Of a stretch of 64,000 bases of DNA, positions 3,601 to 63,684 are shown piece by piece. The stretch comes from Girardinichthys multiradiatus (taxonomy: Eukaryota; Chordata; Actinopteri; Cyprinodontiformes; Goodeidae). Below the pieces are notes generated by a model, which made no database searches, was not told the DNA's origin, and saw only the letters and a list, made by a program, of their open reading frames with translations. Numbering within the stretch: the first letter of the stretch is position 1; each line of letters opens with the position of its first letter. The position numbers and the translations under genes are program-made. The stretch covers positions 31,327,958 through 31,391,957 of the forward strand of contig NC_061805.1 of NCBI RefSeq assembly GCF_021462225.1. The letters run 5' to 3'.

Positions 3601-6600
3601 AACTCTTTTAGGTTTATTTATTATTTTCCTGTTAGTAATATTATAAAGAAAAAAGAACCTTAATTAGTCAAAACACTTTAGTTTGTTGCACATTTGCTGT
3701 GTGAAAAAAAAAAAGAAAAGATCAATGAGAACTTTTGTCGATCAAAAATCTATCAAGATAACATGTTCATTATAGAAAATAGCGATTGGCAAGTACTGTG
3801 GCTGAAGAGTCTGTCGTTTGTAAAATCTTTGTCTACTGATAGTTTAAGGTAAAATTGAACCTCATTGGTTCAACACAGGGTCTTTGTCTTTCTTTGAGAT
3901 GCAGAAATTTGTTCAGGAGCAATTCAAATTGAATTTGTTACTAAAATGTTCAGTTTTTGCTTTGGATGCATGTAGACTATAAAAAGATTGAAAATAATTC
4001 AATTCAGTTTTATTTATATAGTGCCAATTCACAACACGTCGTATCAAGGGACTTCACAAAGTCAATTCAATGGAATCATACAGATTTACAAGTCAGGTAC
4101 ATACATTCCAATTAATCCTAACAATTGAACAGTGCAGTCAGGTTCAGTTATTTATTCAAATTGGATAGGAAAGGTTTTTCTATCTAAGGAAACCCAGCAG
4201 ATTGTATCCAGTCAGTGACTTGTAGCAGTCCCTCCTCCTGGATGAGCATGTAGAGACAGTGGACAGTCACTGACGTTGACTTTGCAGCAATCCCTCATAC
4301 TGAGCATGCATGTAGCAACAGTGGAGAGGAAAAACTCCCTTTTAACAGGAAGAAACCTCCAGCAGAACCAGGCTCAGTGTGAGCTGCCATCTGCCACAAC
4401 TGACAGGGGGTTTGAGAGAACAGAGCAGAGACACAAAGAGAACAAAGAAGCACTGATCCTGGAGTACTTTCTATGGGAAGGAAAAGTAAAATTTTAATGA
4501 ATGTACAGTACAGCCCAAAAGTTTGGACACACCTTCTCATTCAAAGAGTTGTCTTTATTTTCATGACTATGAATATTGTAGCTTCACACCGAAGGCATCA
4601 AAACTATGAATTAACACATGTGGAATTATATACTGAACAAAAAAGTATGAAACAACTGAAAATATGTCTTATATTCTAGGTTCTTCAAAGTAGCCACCTT
4701 TTGCTTTGATTTCTGCTCCGCACACTCTTGGTATTCTGTTGATGAGCTTCAAGAGGTAGTCACCTGAAATGGTTTTCCAACAGTTTTGAAGGAGTTCCCA
4801 GAGATGCTTAGCTCTTGTTGGCCCTTTTGCCTTCACTCTGTGGTCCAGCTCACCCAAACCATCTCGATTGGGTTCAGGTCCGGTGACTGTGGAGGCCAGG
4901 TCATCTGGCGCAGCACCCCATCACTCTCCTTCTTGGTCAAATAGCCCTTACACAGCCTGGAGGTGTGTTTGGGGTCATTGTCCTGTTGAAAAATAAATGA
5001 TGGTCCAACTAAATGCAAACCGGATGGAATAGCATGTCGCTGCAAGATGCTGTGGTAGCCATGCTGGTTCAGTATGCCTTCAATTTTGAATAAATCCCCA
5101 ACAGTGTCACCAGCAAAGCACCCCCACATCATCGCACCTCCTCCATGCTTCACGGTGGGAACCAGGCATGTAGAGTCCATCCGTTCACCTCTTCTGCGCC
5201 GCACAAAGACACGGTGGTTGGAACCAAAGATCTCAAACTTGGACTCATCAGATCAAAGTACAGATTTTCACTGGTCTAATGTCCATTCCTTGTGTTCTTT
5301 ATCCCAAACAAGTCTCTTCTGCTTGTTGCCTGTCCTCAGCAGTGGTTTCCTAGCAGCTATTTTACCATGAAGGCCTGATTCACACAGTCTCCTCTTAACA
5401 GTTGTTCTAGAGATGTGTCTGCTGCTAGAACTCTGTGTGGCATTGACCTGTTCTCTAATCTGAGTTGCTGTTAACCTGTGATTTCTGAGGCTGGTGACTT
5501 GGATGAACTTATCGTCCGCAGCAGAGGTGACTCTTGGTCTTCCTTTCCTGGGGCGGTCCTCATGTGAGCCAGTTTCTTTGTAGCGCTTGATGGTTTTTGC
5601 GACTGCACTTGGGGACACTTTCAAAGTTTTCCCAATTGTTTGGACTGACTGACCTTCATTTCTTAAAGTAATGATGGCCACTCGTTTTTCTTTACTTAGC
5701 TCCTTTTTTCTTGCCATAATACAAATTCTAACAGTCTATTCAGTAGGACTATCAGCTGTGTACTGTATCCACTTCCTGCACAACACAACTGATGGTCCCA
5801 ACCCCATTTATAAGGCTCGAAATCCCACTTATTAAACCTGACAGGGCACACCTGTGAAGTGAAAACCATTTCAGGTGACTACCTCTTGAAGCTCATCAAC
5901 AGAATACCAAGAGTGTACGGAGCAGTAATCAAAGCAAAAGGTGGCTACTTTGAAGAACCTAGAATATAAGACATATTTTCAGTTGTTTCACACTTTTTGG
6001 TCCAGTATATAATTCCACGTGTGTTAATTCATAGTTTTGATGCCTTCAGTGTGAAGCTACAATATTCATAGTCATGAAAATAAAGACAACTCTTTGAATG
6101 AGAAGGTGTGTCCAAACTTTTGGTCTGTACTGTTGCTCCTTTAGTGGCTTCATCTCGGGGAAAAAAACAAAACAACTAAACTCTGAGCCAGTTTTCAAGT
6201 TTAGAGTATGAGAGAGAGCACATACAGTTAGTCACAGCCAAAAGCTCAGTCAGTAGTTATGTCTAGGAGAAAAATAGTGGTTAAAAACTGAAAGACAGGG
6301 CCAAGTGTATCATCGGTAGGTGAGCATTAAGTTCTTGCCAGCAGAAGCTTGGATGATGTCCCCTCCAGGAAGGTGTCACAGGTAGATACAGAGCCAGGTC
6401 ATATGTAGCTTCTAGGAAGAGAAAAGAGAGATAACATAAAGTTAAAAGCTGAAATAACAGCAAATAATGCATAATTGGAGAGTAGTATGAGAATGTAGCA
6501 AAGAGAGTGAAAGTGGTCATTATGTCCTCTAGCAGCCTAAGCCTATAGCAGCATAACTACAAAGATAGCTCAGGATAACCTAAGCCACTCTAAATATAAG

Positions 6601-15000: not shown

Positions 15001-18000
15001 CCAGATCAGGGCATGATGTGATATTTTGGCCTCTATTAGCCTACTTCATGTTGTTACACAGGTTCTGTTCGGTGGTTTTTAGATTCTACTGGTATAGCAG
15101 TAAAGTATACTGAAATAGCACTCCGTTCTCCAAAGAGAAGCGGTTAATTGCATAAATGAGCAAGGCGGGGGAACAGTCAGTCAGTCATTTTCTATTCCGC
15201 TTCTTCCATGGTGGGTCGTGGGGAAGCTGGTGCGTATCTCCAGCAGTCTATGGGCGGGGTACACCCTGGACAGGTCGCCAGTTCATCACAGGGCGGGGGA
15301 ACAGCTTCCTTTATTAATGGAATCATTGTTGGAAAACTGACCCTTACTTTATGTTCTCTGTTGCTTTTTTCTTTTCATGGAAGAGTGACAAGGCCCAGTG
15401 ATTCTGTGCTGAACTGCGTTTCTTTCCTGGATGAAGGTATCAATAGAGCTATTACTGCTATTAACTTTGTTTTCCTATATCAGCATTTTGGTGTTTCTTT
15501 GCATGAATCTTCCTTGTTCTGTCAAACCCACTGGTTGCAGCGGACCCATAATTAGCCTGGTTCTGCTGTAGGTTTCTTCCTGTTGAAAGAGTCGGTCTGT
15601 TGCCACGTGCTTGTTCAGGATGGGTTGCTGCAGAGTCAATGACTTGATGCAATCATTTGGTTCCCTGGATATCCAACTTTAACCAGTTGGAGTTTTATGA
15701 CTTAATATGACTGGACTGTGTTATGATTAGGATTAAATTGTAATGAATGCAATCAGACCTCAATTTGACCCAATGATCAGATGGGATTGGACTGGATTAT
15801 TTAAAATGAATTTGGACTAAATTGAATTCTATATAAACATATGTGAATTGAATCTGTTTGTCTTTTAAAAGGCCTTGACATGACATTTGTTTTGAATTGG
15901 TTCAATAGAAATAAACTCCAGCATGTGGATCTAAAGTGTTCTCTAATCTCAATTTGATTTAAAGAATACAGTCCAAATAGAGAGCTTGATTCGATTACAT
16001 GAAACCAAACTGTTTGGGTCGCTTCATATGTGAAATCAAAATATTTGATAAAAGATAAAAACAGTACAGGTCGTAAACCTGCTCGGTACCAAAAAACATC
16101 TAACTGACCTGGAGCCGGCTGCGTCTCAAACAAACAAAGGTGCAAAAGAATGCAGATGGTGTGAGGCGCAGCAGATGATAAAAGGAATTCAACAATCTTC
16201 ACTCCATATTTGTCCACAAAATCATTACATTCAGCCTTATAGCTGGATGGTAACAGATGACAGACCTCTTCCATGACTTTCATTAAAGCTTCCTGCAGGG
16301 TGAGAGAGTGAGAAGATAACTGCTGCTTTAAGTCAGGGTGGTGGGGATTATTATACCGGTGTCAAATGAAAGTCTCACCTCAGTCATATTTTTAGGCAAC
16401 ATTGTTTCCAGTTTCTTGATAAACAACAAACACAAGGTGCAAACTGGGCTGAATACATCCTAGAAAGAGGAATAAGGTACAAGTTGATCATTTACAACTA
16501 CTGTTTCACTTCTGCTGCCTGTTTCTCTTCTGCTTTCTCACTAACTTCAGTTTCAGAGGCGGTGCCAAGTGCAGAGCTGGACGTGTCTTTACTGGGGACA
16601 TGATGGGAAGGCTGCTGCAGTTTCTTGTCCTGGTTGGTTGCACAAAGCCCAAAAACCTCACAGATCTCCTCTGGTTTCTATACAAACAGATGCAGTGTTT
16701 AGTATTGTAAGTCTGATCAAATATACACATAAACAGGTGTAAGGAGAGGTCAAACTCACCCAGTTACTGGATGTTTGCTGCATGATCTTTGGCAGATATA
16801 TTTTCACTTGTAACTCACATTCGGATGCTTGTTCTTTAGGGAGACGCTGACACAAAGCATGCAAGGCTTTAAATACAGTAACCTGTGAAAGCATGATGGA
16901 TAGTTGTTTACATTAACAGTGCCTCCAAAAAATATTTATGGCATAGAACGTTTTCATGTTTTGTCTCTTTACATCCTCTAACTTTAATGTACTTTACTAA
17001 GATTTTATTTTTTAAACAACACAAAGTAGTACAAAACTGGTAAGCAGATAGAAAATGATACATGGGTTTCACATTTTTTTTTTTTTTTTACAAACAAATC
17101 TGTATAGTGCAGCATGCATTTTTATTGAGCCACATGAAACAAAATTTAGATCTCGACTGGCTGGACCATTCTATCACATTCACATGCTTCAGTATAAACC
17201 ATTTCATTGTAGTTCTGGCTGCAATTTTAGGGTCATTGTCCTGCTGGAAGGTGAACCACCACACTACCCTCTAATCTTTTGCAGCCTCTAATAGTTTTTC
17301 TTTTAGGATTTTACTATATTTAGCTTAATTCGTATTCCCATGAACTAAGACCAGCTACCCCGTCCCGCTGCAGAAATGCATCCCCACAGTATGATGCTGC
17401 CACCACCATGTTTTACAGCTTGGATGGTGTATTCGGGCTTAATGCCAAATGGACTTGCTCTGGCTTTCTTCTTGTCTCTTCTATAAAGGCCAGTGTGGAC
17501 TGTACAAATGATAGATATCCCATTGATAGATTCTCCCACCTGAGCTGTGGATCTCTGCAGCTCCTCCAGAGTTATTACAGACCTCTTGACCTCTCTAAAG
17601 AATGCTCTTCTTGTCCACCCTGTTAGAGTAGGCAGGCTTTAGTAGGTTTGGAGCTCTGCTGTATTTCCAGATGATGGATTGGACAGACCTCTGTGAGATG
17701 TTCAGTGTTTTAGATGTTGTTTTATAACCTAACTCTGCTTCAAAATTCTTCACAACTTTCTCTCTGACCTGTCCGCTGTGTTCCATGGTCTTTATGATGC
17801 TGTTTGTTCTTTTATGTTCTCTGGAAACCTCAGAGGTCTTAAAAGAACAGCTGGATTTATGATTAGGTTAAATTACACAGAGGGGGACACTGTTTTCTTA
17901 TTAAATGACTTCTGAAGGCCGCTGGTTGCGCTGGGTTTTATTTAGGAGTATTAGAGTAAAGCCATTAAATATGAATGCATGCCACACTTTTCAGATTTTT

Positions 18001-28089: not shown

Positions 28090-31068
28090 CCAGCCCAAAA
28101 TTTTCCCCCAGTGGGCCCACCAACTGCAGGGGGAACCGTGAAGGACCGGTGCAAAGAGGATTGGGCGGCAGACGAAGGTGGAGACCTCGGCGGCCCGATC
28201 CCCGGATGCTTAGGCTGGCTCTAGGGACGTGGAATGTCACCTCGCTGGGGGGGAAGGAGCCTGAGCTGGTGCTGGAGGTCGAGAAATATCGACTAGAAAT
28301 AGTCGGGCTCGCCTCCACGTACAGCGTGGGCTCTGGAACCCATCTCCTCGAGAGGGGCTGGACTCTCTTCTACTCTGGAGTGGCCCGCGGGGAGAGGCGG
28401 CGGGCTGGGGTGGGTTTGCTTGTTGCCCCCCAGCTCAGCCGTCTCGTGTTGGGGTTTACCCCAGTGGATGAGAGGGTCGCATCCCTGCGCCTTCGGGTTG
28501 GGGAGAGGTCTCTGACTATCATTTCAGCCTACGGGCCGAGTGGTAGTGCGGAGTACCCAGCCTTCTTGGCGTCCCTGTCAGGGGTGCTGGATAGTGCCAC
28601 TCCTGGGGACTCCATTATTCTGACACCTGGAGAGGCGTGATTGGGAGGAATGGCCTCCCCGATCTGAATCCAAGTGGTGTTTTGTTATTGGATTTCCATG
28701 TTCAAACATAAGGGTGTCCATCAGTGCACTTGGCACCACGATACCCTAGGCAGGAGGTCAATGATCGACTTTGTTGTGGTATCATCAGATCTTCGGCCGC
28801 ATGTTTTGGACACTCGGGTGAAGAGGGGCTGAGCTGTTCACTGATCACCACCTGGTGGTGAGTTGGATCTGCTGGAGGAGGAAAAAGCCGGACAGACTTG
28901 GCAGGGCAGGCCCAAGCGCATAATGAGAGTCTGCTGGGAACGTCTGGCGGACCCCTTGGCCAGGGATGTATTCAACTCTCACCTCTGGGAGAGCTTTGAC
29001 CAGATTCCGAGGGATGTTGGAGACATAGAGTCCGAATGGACCATGTTCTCCACATCTATTGTCGATGCTGCTGCCCGTAGCTGCGGCCGTAAGGTCTGCG
29101 GTGCCTGTTGCGGCGGCAATCCCCGAACCTGGTGGTGGACACCAGCAGTAAGGGACACTGTCAAGCTGAAGAAGGAGTCCTATCAGCTGTAGTTGGCTTG
29201 TGGGACTCCTGAGGCGGCTGACGGGTACCGTGGGGCCAAGCGTGCCGCGGCCCGGGCAGTGGCAGAGGCAAAAACACGGACCTGGGAGGAGTTTGGTGAG
29301 GTCATGGAGAAGGACTACCGGTTGGCCCCGAAGCGATTCTGGCAAACCGTCCAGCGCCTCAGGAGGGGGAAGCAGTGCTTTGCCAACACTGTTTACAGTG
29401 GGGGTGGGGAGCTGCTGACCTCGACTGGGGACATTATCGGGCGGTGGAAGGAGTTCTTCGAGGATCTCCTCAATCCTGCTATCACGCATGCCCTGGTGGA
29501 AACAGAGGCTGGGGACTCGGGGTTGGACTCTTTCATCACCCAGGCTGAAGTCACCAAGGTGGTTAAAAAGCTCCGCGGTGGCAAGGCTTCGGGGTTGGAT
29601 GAGATCCGCCCTGAGTACCTCAAGTCTTTGGATGCTGTGGGGCTGTCATGGTTGACACGCCTCTTCAACATTGCGTGGCGGTTGGGGACAGTGCCTTTGG
29701 ATTGGCAGACTGGGGTGGTGGTCCTGCTACATAAGAAGGGTGACCGGAGGGTGTGTTCCAACTACAGGGGGATCACACTCCTCAGCCTCCCTGGTAAGGC
29801 CTACGCCAGGGTATTGGAGAGGAGAGTCCGGCCAATAGTCGAACCCCGGCTTCAGGAGGAGCAGTGTAGTTCTTGTCCCAGCCGTGGGACACTGGACCAG
29901 CTCTATACCCTCTACAGGGTACTTGAGGGTTCATGGGAGTTTGCCCAACCGGTCCACATGTGTTTTGTGGACCTGGAGAAAGCATTCGACTGTGTCCCTC
30001 GTGATGCCCTGTGGGGGGTGCTCCAGGAGTATGGAATCGGTGGCTCTTTACTAGGGGCCATCCGGTCTCTGTACAAGCGGAGCAGGAGTTTGGTTCGCAT
30101 TGCCGGCACTAAGTCGGACCTGTTCCCGGTGCATGTTGGACTCCGACAGGGCTGCCCTTTGTCACTGGTCCTGTTCATAATTTTTATGGACAGGATTTCT
30201 AGGCACAGCCAAGGGCCGGAGGGGGTCTAGTTTGGGGACCAGAGGATTTCGTCTCTTCTTTTTGCAGATGACGTGGTCCTGCTGGCCCCATCTAGCCAAG
30301 ACCTACGGCATGCACTGGGGTGGTTCGCAGCCGAGTGTGAAGCGGCTGGGATGAAGATCAGGTCCTTCAAGTACGAGGCCATGGTTCTCGACCGGAAAAG
30401 GGTGGCTTGTCCTCTTCAGGTTGGAGGGGAGTTCCTGCCTCAAGTGGAGGAGTTTAAGTATCTCGGGGTCTTGTTCACGATTGAGGGAAGAATGGAGCGA
30501 GAGATCGACAGACGGATCGGTGCGGCTGCCACAGTAATGGGGGCGCTGTGCCGGTCCGTTGTGGTGAAGAGAGAGCTGAGCCGAAAAGCGAAGCTCTCAA
30601 TTTACCGGCCGGTCTACGTTCCTACCCTCACCTATGGCCATGAACTGTGGGTCATGACCGAAAGAACGAGATCCCGGATACAAGCGGATGAAATGAGCTT
30701 CCTCCGTAGGGTGGCCGGGCACTCCCTTAGAGATAGGGTGAGGAGCTTGGCCATCCGGGAGGGACTCGGAGTAGAGCAGCTGCTCCTCCACATCGAGAGG
30801 AGCCAGTTGAGGTGGCTCGTGCATCTAAACCGGATGCCTCCTGGACGCCTTCCTCGGGAGGTGTTCCAGGCACGTCCCACCGGGAGGAGGCCCAGGGGAC
30901 GGCCCAGGACACGCTGGAGGGACTATGTCTCTCGGCTGGCCCGGGAACGCCTTGGGCTCCACCCGGAGGAGCTGGAGGAGGTGTCTGGGGAGAGGGACGT
31001 CTGGGCGTCTCTGCCGAGTCTGCTGCCCCCACGACCCGGTCCCGAATAAGCGGAAGATGATGAGTACG
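28090..31068 (+). mobile_element. RTE-clade LINE, nearly full-length but inactivated
   Basis: The element encodes an APE-type endonuclease and a reverse transcriptase. The endonuclease starts near 28207 with [19 protein letters not shown]. It has lost about 40 bp at 28622 (the GDFNAHVG part) and another piece near 28696. The RT runs in one frame from 28863 to 31049 except for two TAG codons, at 29190-29192 (expected Trp) and 30228-30230. RT motifs include GLRQGCPLS and LLFADDVVLLA; the C-terminus is SLLPPRPGP. The base composition is clearly more GC-rich than its surroundings. Assignment to the RTE/BovB group is from memory of the endonuclease sequence. Other copies are at 7.2-7.8, 39.9-40.3 and 52.2-53.3 kb. 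Confidence 0.85.
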
Positions 31069-43527: not shown

Positions 43528-46500
43528 ATGAATAAGTTTCTCTGCCTATTGGCTGTTGGTCTAACCCTTGGCTTGCAATGCCAAGTGGATGCCAGTGAGT
43601 AGTTTTCTTCTTCTAAAATCTTAGAAACAATTGACAACATATGTATTACTGAGTAATTTAAGTTAAAATGTGTGTCTTCAAATGTGACCTATTGTTTTCT
43701 ATAAAAACTGAAACTTCTGTTTTAAACTTTGGTGCATTAGGTTGAAATAAATAAATAAATAATTAATTAACTAAATTAGTTTAAATATGTCACAAAACCA
43801 GTACAACTAATTGCAAACTATAAATTTAAGAAACTGTATTTTTTTGCATTCAGAACGCCATTTGAGCTACAGTTTCATTGAAAAATGTGTGAATAATGCT
43901 AAAGCCAACGTGGACGCAGCCTATACATACTCCCGTCAAGAGTGAGTGTAAAACCCCGTTCTTCTGCTTTTCTTTCACCTCTCAATATAAAATAATCCCC
44001 CAAAAAAGATATGAATGAATACCTGAACTCTTTATACAACAAAGGAGCGTTGACCGGGTGAAGAGAAACGCAAGCCCTGCCGATGTCCTGAGACTTCTGA
44101 AGCAGCCCAGCGGACCGTCCAGAGAGGCGGTGCGTGCTGCTGATTACATGGACAACACTCTGCATCTGATCAAGAGGGCTCTGGCAAAACGTCAGAAACG
44201 CTCCATCAATGCCACAGGTTTGTGTTCAAATTGACCTCTTTGAGGTATGCTGGCATGGCTTGAACTCACAGCTAACATTTATTTTTCTCATGCTTTATTT
44301 AGACCTGATCTCTGCAGAGGATTTGACAACGATTGCCAGACTCACAGGCTGCTCTGCTCAAGTCAGAATTATTAAATGCCTGGATATTCCCAATCTCTAC
44401 AAGTATCGCACAGCAAACAACACCTGCAACAACATGTATGGGAACTATTCATTAGAAGATGTTTACTTCATATCCCTGACAGCCAGAACTAAGTGTTAGA
44501 TAGAAATCAAAGGGAGCAAGAGTAACAAATGTCATTCAAAATCATTTTGGACTTTGTTGTAAGGATTTGGCTTTAAACTCCTGTTACATGTTGTAACCTT
44601 TTAAAAAAAACATGGAAGTATCAAACTTAGGTGTTATTGCTTCCACTTATAGTGAAAACCCTCGCTGGGGTGCCTCCAACATCCCGTTCCTCCGCTGGCT
44701 GCCCGCTGAATACGAAGATAAAATCAGTACTCCTAAAGGCTGGACCCCGAACCTGAAAATCAACAATCGCCTTCTTCCCTTGGTAAGTACTTCAGAGAAG
44801 CCTTTTCTGACAATGTTCATCAGAAGATAGAAGATACTAAAACGCATCCTCTCTTTGTCTCCATTCCTCCCTCAGGTGAGAAAAGTGTCGAATCGTATCT
44901 TGTCAACAGCTAATTCCGATGTGGACAGTGACCCCCTCTACACCTACCTGCTCACAATCTTTGGCCAGTGGACTGACCACGACCTCACTTTAACCCCTAA
45001 CTCTCCTTCCATCAGGTCATTTAATGATGGCATTAATTGTACGGAGACCTGCACCAACACAGAGCCATGCTTCCCAATTGAAGTCAGTGATGAAAAAATT
45101 TAACATTATTTTTGCAGAAGATGAAAACACATTTAAGGCATTAAAGTCTAACAGTTTCCTGCCTTCTAAACAGTTCCCCTCCGATGACCTCCGCGTTAGG
45201 GATAACTCTGAGAAGTGCATGAGCTTCACCCGCTCTGCACCAGCTTGTGGTTCTGGGAACTCTGGATACATCTTCGGATCCCCCACTGTTCGCCAGCAGA
45301 TGAACACCCTGACAGCCTTCATCGATGTGGGTCAGGTCTATGGTTCCGACCATTCCAGAGCTAGTCTGCTCCGGAACTTCAGTACAGATGGCCTGTTGAA
45401 GGTCAATGAAGAGCATAAAGACAACGGCCGTGACCTCCTGCCATTTACCACGGGGTTCAACTTCTGTGCCACAAGGCAACGTATAACCAAGGATACCAGT
45501 GCTGAGGAGGTGCAGTGCTTTTTGGCTGGTGAGTCTCAGTTAAAAGAAGTGACTCATATGTGATTCATATAGATCTGTAAGCATGTCTCATGACTGAATA
45601 TTTTGGTTCGGTCTGGAAGTTATTGTTATCAGGTCATTTAATTGAATGTGACCTTATAGGTGACGGCCGTGTCAATGAAAACCCCGCACTGGCTTCCCTG
45701 CACACTCTGTTGATGAGAGAGCACAACCGTCTGGCCCACGCCCTCGCTTCGCTCAATCCACAGTGGAACGGAGAGAAGCTTTACCAAGAAGCCCGCAAGA
45801 TTATGGGTGGATACTTCCAGGTAAGAGACAGGAAGAGGAGCGCAGATCTGTAAACCAAGGTTTCACATCCCAGAAACATTGGGCTGGAGTTTTCTGCATA
45901 TATCTAGTCATTTTAAGACAGATCTATAAGGTTATATAAAAATACATTAAAACATGCCCAAAACTCAAAATTTACTCTGTTGACTGAATGTCTTTCAAAC
46001 AGATTGGAGAACCCAAAATAGGTTCTAAAAGAATTCTCTGCTTCATGCATGGCAGTGAAAGAGTATTACCATTTAAAGTTAACCCAGTTCCTCTGTTCTG
46101 TAATAGGTTATTACTTATAGGGACTGGCTCCCCCACATTGTTGGACCAGAGGCCATGTCGAGGCAGTTGTCCACCTACCCCGGTTATAATAAGAGCATAG
46201 ATCCCAGCATAGCCAATGTGTTCGCCTCAGCTGCCTACCGATTCGCTCATCTGATGGTTCAGCCCTTCATCTTCCGCCTTGATGAGAATTACGAGGAACA
46301 CCCGCAGTATCCCACCGAGCTGCTGCACAGAACCATGTTTGCTCCTTGGAGGATAGTCTTTGAAGGTAAGAATTTGAACTTCTAACTCTGCCGTAAGGTA
46401 GCAAATGAACATGATGATCAAATCTGAATGTTTCCATTTTCTCGTCAGGTGGCCTGGATCCAATCTTGAGAGGGTTGGTAGGTCGTCAGGCTAAGTTGAA

Positions 46501-48323
46501 AACACAGAATAAAATGATGACTGAGGAGCTGAGGGACAGACTGTTTAAATTCTCTGTAAAACTGGCGCTGGATCTGGGATCTCTAAACATGCAGAGAGGA
46601 AGAGACCATGCACTCCCTGGTATTTATTAATCCTAGATGCTTGATTTTGAAATTCCTCTTTCCTACACACCGGGCTTAGCCTTTTCTACAATGTACTCAC
46701 CATCTTTTAAACGGTGTCTCCCTGATTTAGGCTACAACAAATGGCGAAAGTTCTGTGGCCTGTCACAGCCAAAGACTCTGAATGAGTTGGCTAAGGTGAT
46801 GAACAGCACAGATTTGGCCAAAGGACTTCTGGATCTTTATGGTACACCTGACAACATTGATCCATGGCTGGGAGGAGTGGCTGAGCCATTTATCCGTGGA
46901 GGAAGAGTGGGACCCTTGTTTGCCTGCCTGATTTCCACTCAGTTTCAGAAAATCCGTGAGGGAGATCGGTTAGTCAACAGAAAATTACTAAACTACCAAA
47001 GATCCAAAGATCAATGCATTGTATGTGTTTTTACATCCTAAGAAACCAATCTCAAACAATGTGTCTTATTTTAGGTTTTGGTGGGAGAACGATGGTGTCT
47101 TCACAGATGCTCAAAGGCTGGCTATTAAGGACACATCTCTGGCCCGAATCATTTGTGATAACACTGGGATAACTGAGGTTCCTCTAAAGCCCTTCCAGTA
47201 CCGACCTCGAGGCTCTGGATACACCCAGTGTAACGACATCCCTCCATTTGACCTCAGTCCATGGAGAGAGGGTGGTATGTTTGCATTAAGATTTTCCAAG
47301 TGTTGCCAGAGGAAACGTCAAATATGATATTTATTAAGTGTAACAAAGTTCTTTGAAAAAAACCAACCATTGATTTCTTTGCTCTAGCTACAGGTCCAGA
47401 AGATCCAAAACCAACAGGTAGATATTTCACTTCCTTTGAATGCAAATGTTATTGATGCTGTATTATCACTATAAAATGCTGAAATTGTCCTTAAGTACAT
47501 GGTCATTTAGTGTTCACATATCTCAGTTGTTCACAGTTTAGTATCTGTGTGACTTTTACCTCCATACTGCTTCATTTTCACTTTGATCATAATCTCACGG
47601 GGATTCAGAAATTTCATGTAAATCTAAACTTATGTTTCTTTCATTTTTGAATAGTTAGGTTGACATAGTAATAATAGGTCTATTTAATTTTATTATTTGT
47701 ATTTTATTATACATGTAGAAAAATACAGATTTTTACGTAAGTTTTTTATTTTTCACAAAAGGTCGACCTGGACCCCCTGGACCACCAGGTAGATGTTCTA
47801 TGTCTTTTAGTAATCATAAACAATGTAACTGATGCAGCACAGGTAGCATTTTACAACACTTTATGAACAATGTTCTTGCATGTAACAGTGCTCATGTGAT
47901 TTTGTACCAGGTCCACCAGGACCTCCAGGACCCCCCGGCACAGTGGAGAATGTTGCCTTCTCTGTGCGCCTGGGTGACAACATTCCCAAATGTGGCACCC
48001 CCATCCCCTTCCATGATGTAATCTATAATGGACAGAACAGCTACGACCCCGAAACCGGCTTTTTCACCTGCAAGCACCCAGGTGTCTATGAGTTTGAGTT
48101 CCACTGCGCCATCTATGAGAGCGCAGCCAGCCTGGATCTGCTCCGTAACGGAGATCTGGTTCTGCACTCATTCACCACCCGCCAGAGTGGCTACATCACA
48201 GCCAGCGGCAGCATCTTCATCAAGCTGAAGGAGGGAGACAGGGTGTGGCTGGTGGCTAACAGTGGTGGCAACGGACTCACTAGAGATAGCTACTTCTCTG
48301 GTCATCTGCTGTTCACTGAGTAG
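43528..48323 (+). CDS. Myeloperoxidase/eosinophil peroxidase-like heme peroxidase with C-terminal collagen-C1q module
   Basis: Coding exons: 43528-43594, 43854-43941, 44045-44217, 44303-44435, 44653-44782, 44876-45082, 45174-45528, 45660-45820, 46107-46365, 46449-46619, 46731-46968, 47075-47274, 47388-47417, 47762-47788, 47911-48323. All phases match; about 883 aa. A signal peptide ([18 protein letters not shown]) and propeptide precede the animal heme-peroxidase domain (about 150-727). Residues by MPO alignment: Asp231-His232 (distal His, heme ester Asp), Arg388 and Glu391 (MPO Arg239, Glu242), His486 (proximal). MPO's heme-linked Met243 is Asn392, so no sulfonium bond is expected, as in EPO/LPO. 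It should oxidise halides or thiocyanate with hydrogen peroxide, in granules or secreted. Residues 738-756 are six Gly-X-Y triplets; 758-883 form a C1q domain ([10 protein letters not shown]...FSGHLLFTE). This looks like teleost mpx/epx, but MPO family members I know end near residue 730-760 without C1q. Confidence 0.92.
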
Positions 48324-48473
48324 GACGGTGTTAAAGTGCTCGTCCAATTGCAAATTTAAAGCAGTTAAAATCAAAACTTAAAAACTGAGTGCATTCAAAG
48401 ATTAACAATGCGTTTTTCGTGATCAAAATATGTAAGGTGAATAAAATGTGTGTTGCTACTTTATGTGTACATT

Positions 48474-48479
48474 AATAAA
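48474..48479 (+). terminator. Polyadenylation signal of the peroxidase-C1q gene
   Basis: AATAAA lies 151 bp after the stop codon. It supports the C1q exon being the true last exon. Confidence 0.65.
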
Positions 48480-52204: not shown

Positions 52205-53350
52205 TCCGGCTTTCTCCTCCTCCAGCGGATCCAACTCACCACCAGGTGGTGATCAGTGGACAGCTCAGCCCTTCTCTTCACCCGAGTGTCCAATACATGC
52301 GGCCGAAGGTCTGACGACAACAAAGTCGATCATTGACCTCCTGCCTAGGGTGTCCTTGTGCCAATTGCACTGATGGACACCCTTATGTTTGAACATGGTG
52401 TTCATTATGGACAATCCGTGACTAGCACAGAAGTCCAATAACAAAACACCACTCGGATTCAGATCGGGGAGGCCATTCCTCCCGATCACGCTTCTCCATG
52501 TGTCACTGTCGTTTCCCACGTGGGCGTTGAAGTCCCCCAGCAGAATAATGGAGTCCCCGGGAGGGGCATTATCCAGCACCCCCGACAGGGACAACAAGAA
52601 GGCCGGGTACTCCGCACTACTGCTCGGCCCGTAGGCCGAGACGACAGTCAGAGATCTCTCCCCAACCCGAAGGCGCAGGGATGCGGCCCTCTCATCCACT
52701 GGGGTAAACCCCAACACGAGACGGCTGAGCTGGGGGGCATCAAGCAAACCCACACCAGCCCACCGCCTCTCCTCGTGGGCCACTCCAGAGTAGAAGAGAG
52801 TCCAATCCCTCTCAAGGAGATGGGTTCCAGAGCCCACGCTGTGCATGGAGGTGAGCCCGACTATATCTAGTTGATATCTCTCGACCACCCGCACAAGCTC
52901 AGGCTCCTTCCCCCCCAGCGAGGTGACATTCCACGTCCCTAGAGCCAGCCTAAGCATCCGGGGATCGGGCCGCTGAGGTCTCCACCTTCGTCCGACACCC
53001 AATCCTCTTTGCATCGGTCCCTCACAGTTCCCCCTGCAGGTGGTGGGCCCACTGGGGATGGCCTCGCGTTTCTTGTTCGGGCTTCGCCCGGCCGGGTCCC
53101 ATGAGGAGCAACCAGGCGCTCTCTGGCGAGTCCCGACCCCAGGCCTGGCTCCAGGGTGGGACCCCGGCTTTGCCGTACAGGGCGACGTCATGTGCCTCGA
53201 TATATTAGTCCTCATGAAAGATTCTTGAACCGCTCTTTGTCAGACCCGTCACCTAGAGCCTGTTTGCCATGGGAGACCCTACCAGGGGGATTTAAGCCCC
53301 AGACAACATAGCCTCTAGGATCATTTGAGCACTCAAACCCCTCCACCACG
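52205..53350 (-). mobile_element. RTE-type LINE 5' end with intact endonuclease frame
   Basis: An open frame of 316 codons (53215-52265) reads through an apurinic endonuclease domain: [46 protein letters not shown]. This is the region deleted in the 28.1-kb copy. The 5' untranslated part extends to about 53350. The element stops at about 52205, after a KPDR motif, so the RT is missing. That is unusual for a LINE, which normally loses its 5' end. Confidence 0.8.
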
Positions 53351-59091: not shown

Positions 59092-60211
59092 TATATAAAC
59101 CCGGACAGCAGTCAGATTGCAGCTGGAAGCCCTCGGTGGATGCTGAGGAATATAGTCTGGTTTTACATTTACTTACAGGTACTTGCACTATTTCCTAATG
59201 TTCAGATGTTCAGAGACTGTTGTTTATATATGTTTAACATCTAGATGTTCATATGCGTATTCCAGAGAGTGACTGCACTGTATTTGCGTGTATTTTACAG
59301 AGATGGACCATTTCGAGTGGCTGCTGACTGTAGGTCTCATCCTGTGTTTGCAATGCCATGTCGTAGGTAATATATCGGTCTTTTTGTTATAACAAATACA
59401 TTTAAATTCATTGCCAATTTTTAAATGATTTTAATGTAACTGATTTCAAACATCTTGCTTTTATATTACAATATGTACAGACACGAGTAACTGTGCAACA
59501 TGTCTTCTTAACGTAATCGTTTAATGGAATTATTACTATTTTTCTGCAGATCTCCATCTCAGCATGAAGCTGATTGAAAAATATGTAAACGAAGCCAAGG
59601 CCAACGTGGACGAATCCTACACATACTCCCGCCGAGTGTGAGTGCATCATTCAGTGATTTATTCCTAAACTGAGCTTGTTTCAGCTGAAAATGTTAAGAA
59701 ATAGGACCTCTCTACAAAACGCAGGAGCATTGACCGGGTGAAGAGAAACGCAGTCGGCCCTGCAGACGTCCTGAGGCTGCTGAAGTAGCCCAGCGGAGCG
59801 TCTAGAGAGGCGGTGCGCGCTGCAGACTACATGGATAACACTCTGCATCTGATCAAGAGCTCCCTGTCCATACGTGACTGACGCTCCATCAACGCCACAG
59901 GTTTGAGTTTAAAATGAAAATGAGAGGTTTCCTCATACATGTTTTAAATAAAGCTGTTTCTCTGTTGTGTTGATTAGATCTGATCTCTGCGGAGGATCTA
60001 GAAGTGATCGCCAGACTGACAGGCTGTTCTGCGCAACTCAGAAGTGTTTCCTGCCAGAGCGTTTCACAACCTGAATAAGTTTTGCACTCCAAGCAGCATC
60101 TGCAACAACATGTGAGGCACCTTATTATTATAAGACCAGCGGTATTTCACTGCTATGGATGAAGTGCAAAAATATAGCTGCAGGGATCTACAGAGTTAAC
60201 TCGTTCTGGTT

Positions 60212-60880
60212 TAGAGCTGAAACAATACATTTAATTAATTTCAATTAATCAATTATTGAAATAATCTAAACTAATTTAGGAACGAATAGTCGTTTACTGG
60301 AGTATACAGACTCTAAAACATGATATTTGCTGAAAGAACAACCCACTCAGAGCTACAATTAAGCCAAAATTGTACAAAAAATACATTTTGCATTTAAGAT
60401 AAATGAACAGTGTTACATTGGCACTTAAGTGCGTTACAGGGGTTCTGTTTTATCTGAATAACATTATGCTTTTTGATGTAAAAAAATCCAGAATGCAACA
60501 TGCAAGTGAAACTTTATGTACTTTTTTTTTTAATTACAGAGGCAGCTAGGACTGCATTTTTCAACCAAAAAGGGCTGAGCTTCAGACATGATGTTAGAAC
60601 TTTTTGTTTTAGCTGCAGTTGCATCCTTTGCTACACTGGTTCAAGTATAGAGGCTGTTTCTGAAAGAAAGGCTTATTGGATTTTAGGCAGAACAATGTTC
60701 ACTTTATTCTTTAAAAAATGAATAGAATTATTTGTTTACTTGCATTTTCTTTTTTGTGTATTTCTATTACTCATAAAATAACCTTAAGTAGTTAAAAGAA
60801 AAATCTGCAGCAAGTCGCAATTTTGTATCCGATTACTCGATTAATCGTCAGAATAATCGATTGAATAGTTGATTACTAGG
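60212..60880. mobile_element. hAT-like MITE (CGATTAATCG type) in pseudogene intron 4
   Basis: The ends read GAGCTGAAACAATACATTTAATTAATTTC and CGATTACTCGATTAATCGTC...GATTGAATAGTTGATTACTAGG. These are the typical termini of a fish non-autonomous hAT family (degenerate inverted ends). No transposase is present. Confidence 0.55.
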
Positions 60881-61686
60881 CCGCCTTTCGATCATATTTG
60901 TGGTTTTGTACAATTTGTCCACGATCCACTGCTGGTAACATCAATATTGTTGGTTTCTAACTTACTTCCCGGGTAATAAAATAACTATGGATATTTTACC
61001 AAATTAAAGAACAGATTTTAAAAATCTTGGGTATAAATAAAATAGGAAAACTTTTTATCTTGTGTCCTGAGTGAGTTTTGTAGTTCATGTGCATGACAAA
61101 GCATTAATGCGAGAACCCCGCTCGCTCTTGTTGGAGCCCATTAAAAACAAGTAGAAAATGCAAAGCTAAAATTGTTTGGTTTTTACTTTTCCATCGAATA
61201 GTAAGAACGTCCTCTGGGGCGCCTCCAACATCCCGTTCCTCTGCTGGCTGCCCGCTGAGTATGAAGATGAAATCACTACTCCTAAAGGCTGGACCCATTA
61301 CCTGAAAGTCAGCAGTCACCTTCTTCCCTTGGTAAGCACATCAGAGTGTACCTTCTTCTCTTCTTTTAATCCCACATGCAGATGCAAGACATCCCCTCTT
61401 TGTCCTCCCTCAGGTGAGAAATGTGTCCAACCATATCCTGAAAAAAGTTAACTCTGATGTGGACAGTGACCCCCTTTACACACACCAGATCACAATCTTT
61501 GGCCAGTGGACCGACCATGATCTCACTTTTACCCTTCACTCCCCGGCCATCAGATCATTTAACGGCGCCATTGATTGTGACAAGAGCTGTGCCAACACAG
61601 AGCCATGTTTCCCCATAGAAGTCAGTGTTGATACATTTCAACATTACATTTCTCACAGATAAAAACCCATATGAAGCATTAAAATA

Positions 61687-63278
61687 CAGGTCCTTCTCAA
61701 AATATTAGCATATTGTGATAAAGTTCATTATTTTCCATAATGTAATGATGAAAATTTAACATTCATATATTTTAGATTCATTGCACACTAACTGAAATAT
61801 TTCAGGTCTTTTATTGTCTTAATACGGATAATTTTGGCATACAGCTCATGAAAACCCAAAATTTCTATCTCACAAAATTAGCATATTTCATTTGACCAAT
61901 AAAAGAAAAGTGTTTTTAATACAAAAAACGTCAACCTTCAAATAATCATGTACAGTTATGCACTCAATACTTGGTCGGGAATCCTTTGGCAGAAATGACT
62001 GCTTCAATGCGGCGTGGCATGGAGGCAATCAGCCTGTGGCACTGCTGAGGTCTTATGGAGGCCCAGGATGCTTCGATAGCGGCCTTTAGCTCATCCAGAG
62101 TGTTGGGTCTTGAGTCTCTCAACGTTCTCTTCACAATATCCCACAGATTCTCTATGGGGTTCAGGTCAGGAGAGTTGGCAGGCCAATTGAGCACAGTGAT
62201 ACCATGGTCAGTAAACCATTTACCAGTGGTTTTGGCACTGTGAGCAGGTGCCAGGTCGTGCTGAAAAATGAAATCTTCATCTCCATAAAGCTTTTCAGCA
62301 GATGGAAGCATGAAGTGCTCCAAAATCTCCTGATAGCTAGCTGCATTGACCCTGCCCTTGATAAAACACAGTGGATCAACACCAGCAGCTGACACGGCAC
62401 CCCAGACCATCACTGACTGTGGGTACTTGACACTGGACTTCTGGCATTTTGGCATTTCCTTCTCCCCAGTCTTCCTCCAGACTCTGGCACCTTGATTTCC
62501 GAATGACATGCAGAATTTGCTTTCATCCGAAAAAAGTACTTTGGACCACTGAGCAACAGTCCAGTGCTGCTTCTCTGTAGCCCAGGTCAGGCGCTTCTGC
62601 CGCTGTTTCTGGTTCAAAAGTGTGAATGCGGCACCTGTAGCCCATTTCCTGCACACGCTTGTGCACGGTGGCTCTGGATGTTTCTACTCCAGACTCAGTC
62701 CACTGCTTCCGCAGGTCCCCCAAGGTCTGGAATCGGCCCTTCTCCACAATCTTCCTCAGTCACCTCTTCTCGTTGTGCAGCGTTTTCTGCCACACTTTTT
62801 CCTTCCCACAGACTTCCCACTGAGGTGCCTTGATACAGCACTCTGGGAACAGCCTATTCATTCAGAAATTTCTTTCTGTGTCTTACCCTCTTGCTTGAGG
62901 GTGTCAATAGTGGCCTTCTGAACAGCAGTCAGGTCGGCAGTCTTACCCATGATTGGGGTTTTGAGTGATGAACCAGGCTGGGAGTTTTAAAGGCCTCAGG
63001 AATCTTTTGCAGGTGTTTAGAGTTAACTCGTTGATTCAGATGATTAGGTTCATAGCTCGTTTAGAGACCCTTTTAATGATATGCTAATTTTGTGAGATAG
63101 GAATTTGGGGTTTTCATGAGCTGTATGCCAAAATCATCCATATTAAGACAATAAAAGACCTGAAATATTTCAGTTAGTGTGCAATGAATCTAAAATATAT
63201 GAATGTTAAATTTTCATCATGACATTATGGAAAATAATGAACTTTATCAGAATATGCTAATTTTTTGAGAAGGACCAG
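61687..63278 (-). mobile_element. Tc1-like transposon in pseudogene intron 6
   Basis: Left end CAGGTCCTTCTCAAAATATTAG and right end TTTTTTGAGAAGGACCAG form inverted repeats of over 200 bp flanked by TA (61685-61686, 63279-63280). The transposase reads from 62950 on the minus strand. A 230-codon open part (62656-61964) keeps the DDE residues in SDESKF, FQHDLAP and SPDLNPIENLWD. The N-terminal part has an in-frame TGA (in the ISE*IGC segment) and a shift near 62640, so it is inactive. Terminal repeats are almost unmutated, so the insertion is fairly recent. Confidence 0.88.
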
Positions 63279-63684
63279 TACATCTTTTTTTCCATTCTGA
63301 GGTTTCCTATAAGCAACCCCCGCTTTAATGATAGCTTTGAGAATTGCATGCCCTTCGCCCACTCTGCACCAGTTTGTGTTTCTGGTGAAACTGGACACAG
63401 CTTCGGAGCCAGAACTATCCGCAAGCAAATAAACACTCTGACATCCTTCATTGATGCGGGTCAGCTCTATGGTTCAGATGACAGCAAAGCTCGCCTGCTC
63501 CGGAACTTCAGTACAGATGAGGGCCTGTTAAGGGTCAATAAAAAGCATAAAGACAACGGCCTGGACCTCCTGCCATTTACCAACATGTGTGCCACAAGGA
63601 GACGTATGACCAATAATGACAGTGCTGAGGAGGTGCCGTGCTTTTCTGCTGGTGAGTCGGACTAAAATATGCCTACTGGGAAAT

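Follow-up and report, generated by a model that had tools for sequence, protein, structure and literature searches.

A predicted fish peroxidase of the MPO/EPO/LPO family with a collagen-like stalk and a C1q head

Introduction

In fishes, MPO/EPX genes are used to mark granulocytes and to gauge innate defence, and human MPO is the usual model for what they encode. In other systems, recognition and killing are divided between complement and MPO. Here we describe a gene in a 64,000-nucleotide stretch of Girardinichthys multiradiatus DNA (assembly GCF_021462225.1, contig NC_061805.1, positions 31,327,958 to 31,391,957 of the forward strand; hereafter the window) that is predicted to encode a peroxidase of this family joined in frame to a short collagen-like stalk and a C1q globular domain.

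A study of flounder MPO (PMC9908613) describes a protein of 770 residues with a signal peptide and a peroxidase domain, expressed most highly in head kidney and studied for its role in extracellular traps; the term C1q does not occur in the main text of that paper. For C1q-domain proteins, three further papers report that those of molluscs bind microbial patterns (PMC13337447), that a crinoid representative is an N-acetyllactosamine (LacNAc)-specific lectin (PMC6409975), and that acidic residues have a role at the C1q trimer axis (PMC8211825).

Results

A splice-site search placed a 15-exon gene on the plus strand at 43528-48323, encoding a predicted precursor of 883 residues and 98.8 kDa. All splice sites are GT-AG, as the search required, and 32 combinations of nearby sites leave the whole frame open; among these, exons 3, 12, 13 and 14 vary by a few residues. 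Exon 1 (43528-43594) carries the start codon and a likely signal peptide, judged from its hydrophobic leader. The propeptide, encoded by exons 2 (43854-43941) and 3 (44045-44217), aligns with that of proMPO and ends in exon 3 with a furin-type RQKR at residues 101-104; the predicted protein cut after residue 104 has a computed mass of 87.1 kDa. Exons 4 (44303-44435), 5 (44653-44782), 6 (44876-45082), 7 (45174-45528), 8 (45660-45820), 9 (46107-46365), 10 (46449-46619), 11 (46731-46968) and 12 (47075-47274; donor GTATGT) encode the peroxidase domain. Three further exons of the same strand complete the frame: exon 13 (47388-47417, 30 bp) supplies the linker TGPEDPKPT and the first base of the first stalk glycine, exon 14 (47762-47788, 27 bp) the collagen-like (G)RPGPPGPP, and exon 15 (47911-48323, 413 bp) the end of the stalk, the entire C1q domain and the stop TAG. 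Two AATAAA polyadenylation signals, at 48440 and 48474 (48440-48479, plus strand), lie 117 and 151 bases past this stop codon, and no further AATAAA or ATTAAA occurs between 46900 and 48700.

Introns 12, 13 and 14 are all in phase 1 by phase count, splitting one Ala and two Gly codons; this is the symmetrical phase classically tied to the shuffling of extracellular modules. Across the joins the stalk reads GRP followed by five GPP, giving six Gly-X-Y triplets. In the Pfam comparison An_peroxidase matched residues 144-699 (profile positions 1-528 of 530, 625 bits against a cut-off of 25, expectation value (E) 1.1e-187) and C1q matched residues 762-880 (positions 1-127 of 127, 93.6 bits, E 1.4e-26). 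The initial annotation had proposed an in-frame fusion of peroxidase, stalk and C1q head at this position; the matching phases and the presence of both domains in one frame bear this out, and its exon coordinates and its count of six triplets agree with the splice-site search. Both joins that it had named, 47274-47388 and 47788-47911 on the plus strand, are present in the predicted model, which requires in addition the join 47417-47762 that it had left unnamed.

The same annotation had named a separate promoter for the C1q exon as a finding that would refute the fusion. No Met occurs in the stalk or the C1q domain, and a tblastn search with three C1q-bearing proteins revealed no other C1q exon within the 64-kb window; a separate C1q gene was rejected on these grounds.

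Fused homologues in other fishes rule out an accident peculiar to this species. Protein matches were taken as the best 120 of 1419, of 2061 and of 2636 hits, and the proportions given here hold for the listed proteins rather than for fishes. A C1q domain was present in 100 of 118 proteins from the first list (two exceeding 1000 residues being left out) and, when the first and second lists were merged, in 131 of 211 aligned proteins, the window included. This alignment comprises the window protein and 210 of 213 matches (P0001, P0087 and P0187 were omitted for length). Coverage of fewer than 90 of the 126 C1q columns was counted as absence of the domain, which applies to partial domains such as those of P0097, which has a Pfam C1q match, and P0165. 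The fused proteins among the matches listed come from eels, herrings, milkfish, carps, characins, pike, smelt, cods, many spiny-rayed fishes and, among bonytongues, Arapaima. The search begun from a gar protein (best 120 of 2636) added bowfin P0214, in which both domains exceed the cut-off. Two gar models and one paddlefish model have neither a Gly-X-Y tail nor C1q, the tails of two sturgeon models (Acipenser P0216 and P0217) are degenerate and Gly-X-Y-like, with no C1q after them, and Hucho P0165, a salmonid, retains a truncated C1q-like remnant. As judged from these sequences, the sturgeon tails and the Hucho remnant are possible losses of the head. On the accepted fish tree the fusion thus dates back at least to the ancestor shared by bowfin and teleosts, and may be older.

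On a peroxidase tree of 210 of the 211 aligned proteins, rooted on gar, one group of nine members comprises the window protein, proteins of Anableps, Fundulus, Gambusia, Xiphophorus and Cyprinodon and one further protein (Shimodaira-Hasegawa-like approximate likelihood ratio test, 99), which makes the source animal a probable relative of killifishes. C1q-bearing members occur in each of two large fish clades, and well-supported branches force at least 28 changes between presence and absence of C1q, a count that includes isoforms and incomplete models. Many of the C1q-less fish peroxidases end in a repetitive acidic tail rich in Asp, Pro and Leu that closes with NEI or NEV and a few residues.

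It was anticipated that domain databases may already list the architecture, and indeed they do, with more than 100 records, mostly named 'eosinophil peroxidase-like' or 'C1q domain-containing protein'. Entries named 'C1q domain-containing' and 'eosinophil peroxidase-like' appear in a Lates skin-mucus proteome (PMC13030388) and a salmon gill and serum proteome (PMC8066739) and are not attributable to the fusion; the fused protein was not found in passages of a sole transcriptome paper (PMC6754371). A description of a C1q-tailed peroxidase was likewise not found in the titles and abstract starts of open-licence PMC literature, which is weak evidence of absence. The fusion is real and old, and databases record it widely, but a functional description is apparently absent from the open-licence literature searched.

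Human promyeloperoxidase (PDB 5mfa) aligns with the window protein over residues 29-726 (704 bits). MPO stops two residues further on; hence exons 13-15 have been added behind the old end of the enzyme. The catalytic set, which we take in MPO numbers to be Gln91, Asp94, His95, Arg239, Glu242, His336 and Asn421, is present in full. All 130 fused proteins that have letters at these columns keep these residues, and Asn421 is kept in 131 of 131; of the unfused relatives, Asp94 is kept in 77 of 80 and Glu242 in 78 of 80. The position of MPO Met243, a residue that forms a sulfonium bond to the heme, is occupied by Asn in the window protein, in 124 of 131 fused proteins and in all 80 unfused relatives. 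The sulfonium link is therefore not expected, which points to EPO/LPO-like rather than MPO-like behaviour. Mammalian eosinophil peroxidase and lactoperoxidase also lack Met243, carry a two-ester heme and prefer bromide or thiocyanate. Chemistry of this kind, with bromide or thiocyanate as substrate, is accordingly predicted to be more likely than MPO-type chlorination. The bit scores of EPO and LPO in the solved-structure search are below that of MPO, so the sequence does not by itself make the window protein an EPO orthologue. By sequence and active site the gene is a member of the MPO/EPO/LPO family, and by its head a member of the C1q superfamily.

Two further properties of the enzyme bear on its assembly and attachment. 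A Cys equivalent to Cys153, which we take to be the position of the inter-subunit bridge of MPO, is present in 131 of 131 fused and equally in 80 of 80 C1q-less proteins, for which reason it was not used as proof of MPO-like dimers; it is found also in monomeric mammalian relatives. The median isoelectric point of the peroxidase part is 6.2 in fused proteins (129 proteins) versus 8.58 in unfused ones (80 proteins), with 7.86 for the window. The strongly basic MPO and EPO of mammals adhere to bacteria by charge. A fused enzyme that no longer has this charge would have greater use for a head, which is suggestive only, as the two groups also differ in ancestry.

The C1q domain of exon 15 is complete and adopts a jelly-roll fold, as in the C1q/TNF superfamily, in a single-chain model with a predicted local distance difference test (pLDDT) score of 90.7. 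The closest solved heads, those of collagen X, collagen VIII and adiponectin, are all trimers. This strengthens the expectation of an oligomeric enzyme voiced in the initial annotation and, by analogy, the head probably trimerises the enzyme. The pair of acids eight residues apart that marks the axial calcium site was not found: the Asp pair of adiponectin aligns with a Thr and a gap. The six triplets of the stalk stand beside the head, as in soluble defence collagens.

The head is constrained about as strongly as the enzyme. Identity of exon 15 to 63 other aligned fish proteins ranges from 40 to 85% (one of two alignments hand-chosen for spread: A2, the window exon with 63 of 231 proteins; the other, A1, comprises 60 of 213), and in the same 100 proteins mean identity to the window is 66% for the head and 70% for the peroxidase domain. 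A decayed tandem second copy, the first part of which occupies 59555-63656 on the plus strand, runs past the window and has stalk exons and a C1q exon of its own (G000:C12:31397824-31398207). Seven in-frame exonic stops interrupt its whole length (an eighth within the match lies in an intron edge and was excluded), and a Tc1-like transposase (DDE_3, E 3e-20; 61967-62683, minus strand) lies between its exons; its C1q part is still open and 80% identical. The window copy has no in-frame stop, against seven in this neighbour, and the reading of its C1q exon as a relic was rejected on this comparison. Between the two copies the ratio of nonsynonymous to synonymous substitution rates (dN/dS), counted by the Nei-Gojobori method in our own script, is 0.33 over the 128 codons of C1q and 0.34 over 723 codons matched in the peroxidase, a set that takes in some intron edges; decay of the copy pushes the ratio towards 1. 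The identities of exon 15 and this ratio speak against chance as the origin of its frame. The Gly-X-Y run, counted with the final G-x-x so that the window scores 7, reaches at least four in 97 of the 131 fused proteins, three in 6 and at most two in 28. Near-equal dN/dS and identities, set beside these variable runs, show constraint on the head and not on the rod, and the collagen stalk is, by this comparison of sequences, a dispensable part of the fusion. A paralogue on contig C8 of the same genome is 81-95% identical to Lates P0206 and P0208 in six of nine matched stretches and 56-66% identical in the remaining ones; no C1q-like exon was found within about 15 kb downstream of it, where nothing outside the tandem copy matched at E under 0.4.

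Evidence from other fishes bears on the transcripts. The whole fused frame runs unbroken in P0037 (894 residues, on a contig of 2768 bases) and P0168 (893 residues, 2932 bases), the latter grouping with a Danio record on the peroxidase tree. As a 15-exon gene should not be uninterrupted in genomic DNA, these contigs, which are from other fishes, are presumed to be spliced RNA; the same join is present in their proteins. If the donor of exon 13 is read through, the frame runs on into a short C1q-less tail that resembles the way Xiphophorus isoform X3 ends (PTG-KLFTSFDINYYW..., P0040). Peroxidase domains that are identical over 581 columns in Lates P0208 and P0206, and again in Seriola P0053 and P0117, carry different tails, as do those of Anguilla anguilla P0125 and P0121 (99.4% identical over 519 columns) and of Myxocyprinus P0141 and P0142 versus P0136 (99.1% identical). 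These pairs are most simply read as products of one gene with alternative 3' ends; tandem copies that are nearly identical, or errors in the models, are also possible. In Sardina P0202 (828 residues) the peroxidase, 84% identical to that of the C1q-bearing Sardina P0075, is followed in place of C1q by a SUEL (galactose/rhamnose-binding) lectin domain. As a single gene model, it may represent a spurious fusion to a lectin gene next to it; if genuine, it would be a second kind of peroxidase-lectin fusion and the strongest hint that the C-terminal end of the protein serves binding.

Elsewhere in the window, domain matches identify a Tc1/Sleeping Beauty-type transposase in two pieces (4836-5735, minus strand) and remains of non-LTR (long terminal repeat) retrotransposons, namely a reverse transcriptase (29193-30227, plus strand, E 1e-19) and an endonuclease (52268-53239, minus strand, E 1.5e-7). 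A saposin B-type domain (SapB_2, E 4e-10; 15804-16361, minus strand) is likely part of another host gene.

Discussion

Taken together, these findings make it close to certain that the fused protein is real. Its best explanation, which we favor by a modest degree, is a secreted EPO-type peroxidase that is trimerised by its C1q head and held on bound surfaces; the targeting step by itself, delivery of the enzyme to surfaces by the head, we consider evenly balanced. Granulocytes would make the enzyme, and the precursor would be cut at RQKR. A trimer of about 260 kDa would then form through the head, with no axial calcium site expected because the acidic residues are missing. The head may bind a microbial, apoptotic or matrix ligand, and bromide or thiocyanate would be oxidised with hydrogen peroxide at the bound surface. 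Alternative 3' ends would let a fish make the same enzyme headless, in which case the head is an optional tether.

Several observations weigh against a trimeric, surface-held enzyme. The fusion in Girardinichthys multiradiatus itself rests on gene prediction together with the proteins of other fishes; many of those records come from automatic gene prediction, some of their joins may have been annotated wrongly, and at least one fused protein, P0191, has a broken C1q part. The head is absent in 80 of 211 relatives, including the eight salmonid entries, and is therefore dispensable. Stalks of at most two triplets in 28 of the 131 fused proteins show no strict need for a collagen rod. In the fold comparison the head of the window protein shows no particular closeness to the C1q A, B and C recognition heads. 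Finally, the full-length model of the Anableps homologue P0002 is poor, with a mean pLDDT of 63 and a stalk below 50 (Foldseek root-mean-square deviation from MPO about 8.5); the domain arrangement in this model was not used, its confidence being too low.

A tentative alternative, which we rate as possible and clearly behind surface attachment, is that the head serves only for oligomerisation or storage, in granule packing, stability or matrix retention, without any recognition. The analogy is with collagens VIII and X, whose heads form networks and are among the nearest solved folds. Against it, the differences in Z score between heads in the fold comparison are small and fold similarity does not show function, and in the sardine model the head is replaced by a SUEL lectin, of which the same trimerisation is not expected. 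It is improbable that the head is a receptor ligand in the style of adiponectin, C1QL or cerebellin, the protein then being a signal that the peroxidase accompanies or modulates: such ligands exist within the fold family, but the catalytic residues are intact in every fused protein with letters there, and the enzyme thus seems to be selected for activity. That the join is an illusion of annotation, with peroxidase transcripts that stop in exon 12 or exon 13 and a C1q exon that is a relic or part of another gene, is very improbable, for although C1q-less ends occur in other fishes, the donor-13 read-through resembles the Xiphophorus isoform and the window fusion is known from gene prediction, the C1q exon lacks Met and matches in phase, the fusion recurs over ray-finned fishes, the C1q dN/dS is low, and fused open frames lie on contigs of less than 3 kb.

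It is tempting to extend surface attachment to a ray-finned pattern-recognition oxidase, in which one granulocyte gene would yield, by choice of 3' end, either a free peroxidase or a trimer landing on microbes with three heads, uniting recognition and killing; we regard this as an attractive and rather doubtful proposal. Trimers could further be paired via the conserved Cys153-equivalent into hexamers or lattices that coat the target. With a lectin exchanged for the head in sardine, the design would have arisen a second time.

If many fishes make a C1q-headed enzyme, assays of peroxidase and the names given to the genes lump together two forms, which may differ in where they act. The gene is also a natural example of an oxidant enzyme coupled to a head that may serve recognition, and the long-standing question of how peroxidase damage is kept to a target would become directly testable through deletion of one exon.

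Several known systems share parts of the window protein. The NC1 domains of collagens X and VIII and adiponectin carry a similar head without an enzyme, and they have longer collagen parts; the axial calcium acids of adiponectin have no match in the window. Anableps P0002, to which the window protein is 82% identical over its whole length, Fundulus P0003 and bowfin P0214 share its architecture, and against the six triplets of the window other fused fish proteins have up to 18 or almost none. Flounder MPO, as described in PMC9908613, is a fish MPO/EPX relative which, unlike the window protein, has no C1q tail. EPO and LPO (PDB 8ogi, 6ky7) resemble the window protein in the two-ester heme and the bromide or thiocyanate chemistry expected of it, and differ in lacking the C1q tail. 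MPO (PDB 5mfa, 6bmt) shares with it the propeptide, the peroxidase domain, the distal and proximal His, the Arg and the Glu ester residue; the window has Asn for Met243 and Ala for Cys150, and adds the stalk and C1q tail where MPO ends with its peroxidase domain, so that the tail is, as initially noted, absent from the solved mammalian chains. The peroxidase-C1q pairing is a variant of both the MPO/EPO/LPO family and the C1q superfamily.
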